Source of the DNA: Pelagibacterales bacterium SAG-MED47
GTDB lineage: Bacteria > Pseudomonadota > Alphaproteobacteria > Pelagibacterales > Pelagibacteraceae
NCBI GenBank assembly: GCA_014653355.1
Contig: JACWEO010000002.1
Location: 1-64,000 of the forward strand
Direction: 5' to 3'
Length of the DNA: 64,000 nucleotides
Shown here one piece after another: positions 11,153-57,363 of this stretch. The position numbers were made by a program, and so were the translations under genes. Below the pieces are notes generated by a model. That model was not told where the DNA came from, ran no database searches, and saw only the letters and a list, made by a program, of their open reading frames with translations. Numbering within the stretch: position 1 is the stretch's first letter; every line of letters begins with the position of its first letter.

Positions 11153-12985
11153 GTGGAAAGAATTATAACAAAATCGTTTGCAAGGTTAATGGGTAGAGGT
11201 ACCCATAGAGGTTTTATTACCTATGAAGAGTTGAATAAGTCTTTAGGTAAAAGAAATCTTTCAGACGAAAATTTAGCTCAAGCTTTTATTCATATACTAG
11301 ATGAAAAGGTTACACTCGTTGAAAAAAAATCTGATTTCAAAGTTTTAAGAAAAAAAGACAATTCATCTAAAGAAGATGGGAAAACTATTGAAAAAAGTGA
11401 TGATCCCATAAGAATGTACTTAAGAGAAATGGGAGGTGTAGAACTTCTTTCAAGAGAAGGTGAAATTGCAATCGCTAAACGAATTGAGGCAGGTAAAGAT
11501 GTAATGTTAATTGCATTGTCACAAAGTCCAATTACAGCTCAACAATTTTTTGATTGGAATTTACAATTACAAAAAGATGAGATTTTAGTTAGGGAAATTA
11601 TTGATATTGATACAAATTATATGGAAGATGAGTCAACAGGTTTAAGTGCTAAACAAAAAAATTCAAGTGAAAATGACAAAGAAAAAGATGAAAATTTAAA
11701 TGATGACAGTGATGAGGAATTCAATCCTACGCTTGCAGCAATGGAGACGGAAATTAAACCTAAAGTTTTAAAAACAATTAGTAATTTAACTAAAGGGTAT
11801 ACTAAATTAATTAAATACCAAAAAGAAAAGCTAGAATGTGTCTTAAATTCTCAAATTTTTTCTGCTTCAAAAGAAAAAAGCTACGAAAAACTTGTAAACG
11901 AAATTTTAGAAAATATTAAATCTCTACAGTTATCACCATCAGTATTAGAGGAATTAGTTCAAAAACACTATATTGAGAATAAAAAAATTATTTCATTAGA
12001 AGGCAATCTTTTAAGACTAGCTATGGATCATAAAATACCAAGAGCAGAATTTATAAAATTTTATATTGGAAATGAAATCAATCCTAATCTTAAAAAATTT
12101 TTAGATACAAGTATAGTATGGAAACAATTTTTTTCAAAAAATAAGGAACAATTTAAAAATATTAGAGAAAGATTAGTTGAAATAAGTCACAAAATTGGAA
12201 TGTCAGTGACTGACTTTAAAAAACTAGTGAGCAGAATTCAAAAAGGAGAAAAAGAGTCCAGAATTGCAAAAAAAGAAATGGTTGAAGCTAATTTGAGATT
12301 AGTTATTTCTATTGCGAAAAAATATACTAATAGAGGACTTCAATTTTTAGATTTAATTCAAGAAGGTAATATAGGATTAATGAAAGCTGTAGATAAATTT
12401 GAATATAGAAGAGGATATAAATTTTCAACATATGCAACTTGGTGGATAAGGCAAGCAATTACTAGATCTATAGCTGATCAAGCAAGAACAATAAGAATTC
12501 CTGTTCATATGATTGAAACAATAAATAAAATTGTTAGAACTCAAAGATTAATTTTGAGCGAGTTTGGAAGAGAGGCTACACCTGAAGAATTATCGCAAAA
12601 ACTTCGAATGCCTTTAGATAAAGTAAGAAAAGTATTAAAAATATCAAAGGAACCAGTCTCGTTAGAGAAACCAGTTGGCGATGAAGAAGATAGTAGTTTA
12701 GGAGACTTTATTGAAGACACAAAAGCATTGGCTCCACTTGAACAAGCAATCAAATCTAACCTTGGAGAGGCTACTACTAAAATATTATCAACTTTAACAC
12801 CTAGAGAAGAGAGAGTTTTAAGAATGAGATTTGGTGTTGGAATGAATACTGATCATACATTAGAAGAAGTAGGTTTACAATTTTCTGTGACAAGGGAAAG
12901 AATAAGACAAATAGAAGCTAAAGCTTTAAGAAAATTAAAACATCCGAGCAGATCAAAACAACTTAAAAGTTTTTTAGAGAGTTAA
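11153..12985 (+). CDS. rpoD: RNA polymerase primary sigma factor (sigma-70 family), GTG start
   Basis: [80 protein letters not shown] near C-terminus. Confidence 0.98.
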
Positions 12986-13009: not shown

Positions 13010-13084
13010 GGGCCGTTAGCTCAATAGTAGAGTACTGCATTGACATTGCAGGGGTAGTTGGAGCGTAACCAACACGGCCCACCA
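13010..13084 (+). tRNA. tRNA-Val (anticodon GAC), CCA encoded, atypical D- and T-loops
   Basis: Acceptor GGGCCGT/ACGGCCC, D-stem GCTC/GAGT, anticodon stem CTGCA/TGCAG with loop TTGACAT, T-stem GTTGG/CCAAC, loop AGCGTAA, A73 + CCA. Confidence 0.9.
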
Positions 13085-13142: not shown

Positions 13143-13219
13143 GGGCCTGTAGCTCAGTTGGTTAGAGCAGTACACTCATAATGTATTGGTCCCAGGTTCG
13201 AGTCCTGGCGGGCCCACCA
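13143..13219 (+). tRNA. tRNA with anticodon CAT, most likely tRNA-Ile2 (lysidine type) rather than elongator Met
   Basis: Acceptor GGGCCTG/CGGGCCC, anticodon loop CTCATAA, T-loop TTCGAGT, CCA encoded; C4-G69 and C5-G68 match known TilS determinants. Confidence 0.92.
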
Positions 13220-15465: not shown

Positions 15466-15823
15466 CTGCCAGATGAACGACTTATCGCTTTAATATTTTT
15501 AAAGAGGAAAGTCCGGACTCTACAAGGATACAGTGCCAGTTAACACCTGGCAGGGGCAACCCTAGGGATAGTGCCACAGAAAATAAACCGCCATAACATG
15601 GCAAGGGTGAAAAGGTGTGGTAAGAGCACACCGGTTCTATTGGTAACAATGAACGCTGGAAAACCCCACTGGGAGCAAGACTAAGTAGAGATGACATTGT
15701 GTTAAAACTAAAAGCCATCCTTGGCTAGTCATCAGGGTTAGTTGCTTGAGCTTAAAAGTGATTTTAAGCCTAGACAAATGATAAGTTTAAATGACAGAAC
15801 CCGGCTTATAGTTCATCTGGCAA
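15466..15823 (+). ncRNA. rnpB: RNase P RNA, bacterial class A
   Basis: GAGGAAAGTCCGGACTC core, GGTAAGAGCACACCGG, GACAGAACCCGGCTTA; terminal helix GCCAGATGAAC/GTTCATCTGGC. Confidence 0.95.
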
Positions 15824-15909
15824 ATCTCCTTGATTTGTAGGATTTAGATGTTCATGTTTTGATTCACTTTAGGCTGAATATATTCCAATAAAACCTTAAA
15901 TTGAAAGTA

Positions 15910-57215: not shown

Positions 57216-57271
57216 TAATTTATAGCCTATTTATGTAATGCACGCAAGAGGTTGTATTTTGAGTCTATAAA

Positions 57272-57293
57272 TGAATCAAAAGTGAATCAAAAG
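57272..57293. repeat. Two tandem copies of an 11-bp unit TGAATCAAAAG
   Basis: TGAATCAAAAG at 57272-57282 and 57283-57293, followed by degenerate GTGAACATCAAAA. Confidence 0.8.
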
Positions 57294-57363
57294 GTGAACA
57301 TCAAAACTACATTTTGTATGCTTGTGGATAACTTCAACTAGAGATAGTTTAATTAAATACTAA

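Follow-up and report, generated by a model that had tools for sequence, protein, structure and literature searches.

The tRNA-Val(GAC) gene of Pelagibacterales bacterium SAG-MED47 probably encodes a working elongator tRNA for GUU and GUC codons in which the D/T elbow has been re-keyed by compensating exchanges, with the L-shape and the G19–C56 contact retained. A18/G55 would have taken the place of G18/U55 and A54/U58 that of U54/A58, with 16/59 (U/A or A/U) joining as a further matched pair. The contacts G18–Ψ55 and T54–A58 are among the most constant in biology and SAR11 are among the most abundant bacteria in the ocean; the re-keyed elbow would be a near-invariant tRNA joint rebuilt through compensating mutations in an abundant natural lineage.

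The tRNA-Val(GAC) gene and its genomic setting

Within the window, by which we mean the whole 64,000-nucleotide stretch analysed, ARAGORN called tRNA-Val(gac) at positions 13010–13084 of the plus strand (75 nt). The call was supported by Rfam (RF00005, 53.6 bits; cut-off 29) and by the predicted fold, a perfect cloverleaf (−28.6 kcal/mol, z −3.3). The acceptor (GGGCCGT/ACGGCCC), D (GCTC/GAGT), anticodon (CTGCA/TGCAG) and T (GTTGG/CCAAC) stems are intact, with TA before the D arm and a single A after it. The anticodon GAC (13042–13044) lies in the loop TTGACAT, the variable loop GGGTA (13052–13056) includes A48, and the gene carries the discriminator A73 and an encoded CCA, all features of a functional tRNA. 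The D-loop AATAGTA (13023–13029) has seven bases, numbered A14 A15 T16 A18 G19 T20 A21 with position 17 absent, and the T-loop AGCGTAA (13062–13068) reads A54 G55 C56 G57 T58 A59 A60. The canonical elbow bases, G18 with U55 and U54 with A58, are absent, and A18/G55 and A54/T58 are found instead. A preliminary description had reported these loops beside intact stems, A73 and CCA, which ARAGORN, Rfam, the fold and direct reading all bore out; its numbering of A18/G55, A54/T58 and G19/C56 was likewise correct by direct reading. The gene displays neither the broken stems nor the lost constraint of a tRNA pseudogene. It also differs from the eukaryotic type that combines A54/A58 with R15/A48, having A54/T58 although A15/A48 is present.

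The gene begins 24 bases after the end of rpoD (11153–12985, plus strand; identified by ORF and synteny), which serves as the locus marker in the genus, and is followed by a canonical tRNA-Met(CAT) gene (13143–13219, plus strand; ARAGORN, Rfam and synteny), its conserved locus partner. The window also contains a class A RNase P RNA gene about 2.4 kb away (15469–15824, plus strand, 289 bits) and a SAR11_0636 sRNA (57250–57339, plus strand, RF01827, 112 bits). The source genome (1.13 Mb, 43 contigs) yielded 27 tRNAs over the Rfam cut-off, comprising a single Val(GAC) gene and a normal Val(TAC) gene. The preliminary description had asked whether another GAC-anticodon tRNA-Val exists; none was found among these 27, and since the genome is 90.75 % complete, single-copy status is not absolute. 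The other tRNAs were largely conventional, with 24 of the 26 carrying a D-loop GG and a TTC T-loop; the two departures were tRNA-Phe and tRNA-Thr(GGT), described below. Of the 948 Val codons in the window, 545 (57 %) are GUU or GUC, so tRNA-Val(GAC) should be heavily used.

Conservation and covariation of tRNA-Val(GAC)

The identical 75-mer was present in 79 of 100 sampled same-genus genomes, drawn from 297 family genomes. Judged by covariance-model score, with not all of the genes read base by base, approximately 181 of 206 same-genus genomes carried the altered form. The other 25 comprised nine with canonical loops, one intermediate, one truncated gene and 14 in which no Val(GAC) was detected, the last being mostly incomplete assemblies. 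The rpoD genes adjoining the identical 75-mer at 62 loci had a median nucleotide identity of 81 % and a minimum of 75 %, and the immediate flanks of the tRNA looked unrelated. As the 75-mer is unchanged while rpoD has diverged to this extent, the comparison indicates that the tRNA is under strong purifying selection. The sequence is thus fixed in most of the genus, and this conservation rules out sequencing error or a strain mutation as the origin of the loops. Canonical loops in other strains, which the preliminary description had named as a possible refutation, do occur at the same locus but are a minority, so that the altered form is neither an error nor specific to one strain.

At the levels of genus, family, order and class, the collected Val(GAC) genes gave 72 distinct sequences, which were counted in place of loci because the locus tallies include some loci more than once. 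Positions 18/55 were A/G in 25 and G/T in 47, positions 54/58 were A/T in 24 and T/A in 48, and no mixed state was observed at either pair, although related sequences share ancestry and these counts are therefore not independent events. Positions 19/56 were G/C in all 72. Among the altered genes, 16/59 was T/A in 15 and A/T in nine, again with no mixed state; their D-loop was otherwise invariant except for rare changes at positions 20 and 21, and T-loop positions 54, 55, 58 and 60 were invariant in the 24 distinct altered sequences. The only sequence of the 72 to separate the two modules was the intermediate L119 (genome G350), whose loops ATTAGTA/TGCAATC combine A18/G55 with T54/A58. Stem pairing in a 36-sequence alignment was 99.6–100 % and included many double changes; 54/58 was AU or UA throughout (36/36). 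Positions 18/58 and 18/55 covaried almost equally, so the Val sequences on their own do not single out the exact partner of A18. The strict pairwise switching and the stepwise intermediate uphold the earlier suggestion that the changes are coordinated rather than random decay, and the proposed check of covariation at 18/55 and 54/58 gave the same answer. The A–A combination at 15–48, which had been included among the concerted changes, is indeed present but falls outside them, since near relatives with canonical loops (L116–L118) share A15/A48; coupling of A15/A48 to the loop switch was rejected over the distinct sequences.

Altered and canonical alleles share the one rpoD/tRNA-Met locus in the genus, and no examined genome had both. 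Labelling the rpoD tree by allele required approximately seven changes, at least four of them forced by well-supported branches. In a poorly resolved tree built from the stems only, the two classes did not each form a single group. Genus g4 has another shared locus, at which altered T16/A59, altered A16/T59 and canonical alleles are all found. Allelic recombination or repeated conversion, or the two together, would account for this pattern; as recombination apparently shifts alleles about, the number of independent switches is uncertain. No altered tRNA-Val from outside the order was present among the matches read from 290 genomes of the class (rows L288 and L301, which ARAGORN did not call as Val(GAC), were left out). 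A pattern search for the loop module outside the genus found no match in 387 class genomes, a sample without the sister family in which a reversed control pattern also returned none. When the whole collection was searched, every record among the matches listed belonged to Pelagibacteraceae or Pelagibacterales. A phage origin was considered and appears unlikely, as neither tRNA had a match in the phage collection.

Other arrangements were seen around the gene. Partial 3′ copies of tRNA-Val, away from or replacing the intact gene (L083, G051:C1:397210–397265; L068, G183), resemble attachment-site remnants, and inserts of approximately 1 kb separate tRNA-Val from tRNA-Met in some genomes (L331, L148). 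Genome G158 (L060/L315) carries a decayed altered tRNA-Val with mismatched stems and the T-loop AGTGTAA (T56), adjoining a divergent rpoD; this copy was left out of the counts as decayed.

The exchanges in other tRNAs and the T-loop modification enzymes

The same modules were identified in other tRNA species. The sole tRNA-Phe seen in the source genome (L015, G000:C1:89311–89382) has the loops AGGAGTA/TGCGAAT, combining A18/G55 with T54/A58, and tRNA-Phe(GAA) in genera g2 and g4 shows the same combination as AGTAGTA/TGCGATT; in total, A18/G55 was found in tRNA-Phe(GAA) of genera g1, g2 and g4 (L345–L352, L355, L360). It is carried there independently of tRNA-Val. The tRNA-Thr(GGT) gene of the source genome (L026/L365, contig C1:85056–85130, minus strand) has the T-loop GTCAGTA and was missed by ARAGORN; a standard finder thus misses some SAR11 tRNA genes. 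Its relatives carry G54/G58 or A54/T58, the latter represented by G177, where the T-loop ATCATTA places A54/T58 beside G18/T55. In G110, G153 and G281 (L408, L410 and L409, respectively) the tRNA-Thr(GGT) loops are TAATGTTA/TTAGATT, with U19/A56 replacing the near-universal G19/C56. Seven genomes of the sister family f2 (L353, L354, L399–L402, L416) have tRNA-Thr(GGT) loops of exactly AATAGTA/AGCGTAA. That both exchanges occur singly or jointly in different tRNAs is our strongest argument for compensating exchange and against decay. With the 18/55 and 54/58 modules also occurring singly, which elbow contacts are required, and by whom, becomes directly testable.

The preliminary description held that T54 and Ψ55 modification would be impossible on this tRNA. 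Its bases indeed cannot accept them, but this is not special to tRNA-Val(GAC). TruB is the near-universal Ψ55 synthase. It was not detected (TIGR00431) in 13 of 13 same-genus genomes, one of them complete, and was present in eight of eight sister-family genomes; across 218 genomes of the order, PF01509 (TruB) matches were confined to f2 and genera g5, g9 and g12. Searches of the genus likewise detected no TrmA (PF05958), and TrmFO had no match over the cut-off there; the sub-cut-off matches covered model positions 277–387 in proteins of approximately 626 residues and are probably MnmG. The analysis has brought to light a genus apparently without TruB, TrmA and TrmFO, in which, with all three undetected, no tRNA should carry Ψ55 or T54 made by known enzymes. 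The absence of these enzymes may have relaxed the demand for U54 and U55, lifting one constraint without triggering the change.

Competing explanations and known systems

It is improbable that the change was driven by the loss of TruB, with U55 freed to vary once the Ψ55 enzyme was gone and A18/G55 following. The distribution of TruB, TrmA and TrmFO given above fits such a sequence of events, but altered tRNA-Val occurs in TruB-bearing g12 genomes (G023, G040), the sister family has altered tRNA-Thr although it bears TruB, and many g4 genomes without TruB have kept a canonical tRNA-Val. Genus g12 and the sister family both contradict TruB loss as the sole cause: the altered loops do not require it, nor does it suffice to produce them, and it thus was not their trigger. 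We give far less credence to a decaying, dispensable isoacceptor, whereby Val-UAC serves the whole four-codon box and the loops of Val(GAC), less constrained, drift as in mitochondria and endosymbionts. The most altered tRNAs are G34 isoacceptors of four-codon boxes (Val, Thr), and Val(GAC) is apparently missing from some genomes, yet no change has accumulated in 75 bases over approximately 20 % rpoD divergence, the loop changes are paired, the stems are fully maintained and the same A18/G55 is found in the essential tRNA-Phe. Least credible of all is a tRNA reserved for a non-ribosomal role in the manner of staphylococcal cell-wall tRNA-Gly, which lacks GG and TΨC and is present in extra copies that serve outside translation. 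Altered D- and T-loops are a hallmark of that class, but the single Val(GAC) found in the 90.75 % complete genome leaves no second copy to serve translation, other strains have canonical alleles at its locus, and G19/C56 is retained. We know of no Val-tRNA-dependent side pathway in SAR11.

The main structural alternative is a different topology, in which a short antiparallel D/T helix (U16–A59, A18–U58 and G19–C56, with 57 bulged) replaces the 18–55 and 54–58 contacts, much as in the double-helix elbows reported for suppressor tRNAs selected in the laboratory. Several features would suit it: the Watson–Crick covariation of 16/59 is confined to the altered form, 18/58 is A/T in all altered genes, and the variant maintains the complementarity of 5′-TAG-3′ with 5′-C(G)TA-3′ in the form AAG/C(G)TT. 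Against this, A18/G55 stands beside canonical T54/A58 in tRNA-Phe and L119, where A18–U58 is impossible and the helix is not needed, A54/T58 stands beside G18 in the tRNA-Thr of G177, and a 16–59 pair is also possible in the canonical topology, being known as Y16–59 in tRNA-Cys (PMC7566577). Since A18/G55 and A54/T58 are each found without the other, the helix is disfavoured and we regard it as unlikely. It is similarly doubtful that AATAGTA/AGCGTAA (and AAAAGTA/AGCGTTA) would form a self-contained elbow of another kind, with a pairing topology of its own, possibly the short D/T helix. Such an elbow would have arisen in the SAR11 order and spread there from one tRNA species or lineage to another, as a module exchangeable with the canonical elbow and in no need of T-loop modifications.

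In the favoured reading, a re-keyed elbow of otherwise ordinary shape, A18 would intercalate and contact G55, A54–U58 would form a flipped pair of reverse-Hoogsteen type and the 16–59 pair would stack over 15–48; the tRNA would be charged with valine and decode. Because the exposed G19–C56 pair is kept while the internal contacts are exchanged, the external recognition face appears preserved and the internal lock changed. The L1 stalk and RNase P also recognize the tRNA elbow (PMC4810234). In no genome examined is the altered form found alongside the canonical form, and the two interchange at one locus, which argues that it does the ordinary job. Two points count against its necessity: canonical alleles exist in the genus, so the altered form is not absolutely required, and a Val-UAC able to read all four GUN codons would make Val-GAC formally dispensable.

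No account of SAR11 tRNA T-loops or of a missing TruB was found in the open-access literature, although subscription papers may mention them; a paper on SAR11 tRNA signatures mentions neither tRNA-Val nor the T-loop and removed unusual secondary structures from its set (PMC3937112). The SAR11 gene shares its cloverleaf, anticodon, A73, CCA and G19–C56 with canonical bacterial tRNA-Val(GAC), including the canonical-loop alleles at the same locus, and differs in A18/G55, A54/U58, the paired 16/59 and A60. The nearest natural parallel is eukaryotic tRNA-Ala, which like the initiator tRNA combines R15/A48 with A54/A58; such A54/A58-type pairs were stated to be absent from bacteria, and no 18/55 change was reported (PMC7566577). 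Both are natural, conserved departures at 54/58 with a purine A48, but the eukaryotic pair is A/A, whereas in SAR11 it is a flipped A/U and 18/55 is altered too. The staphylococcal tRNA-Gly is likewise a bacterial tRNA with non-consensus D- and T-loops, but has extra copies, whereas the SAR11 gene is the only Val(GAC) found. The Steinberg group reportedly selected suppressor tRNAs in the laboratory with re-paired D- and T-loops and double-helix elbows; these also work with non-consensus loop sets but are artificial, whereas the SAR11 loops are natural, fixed and widespread. Metazoan mitochondrial tRNAs, which have no elbow structure (PMC4810234), have similarly lost the consensus D- and T-loop bases, whereas in SAR11 these bases are exchanged pairwise and G19/C56 is kept.
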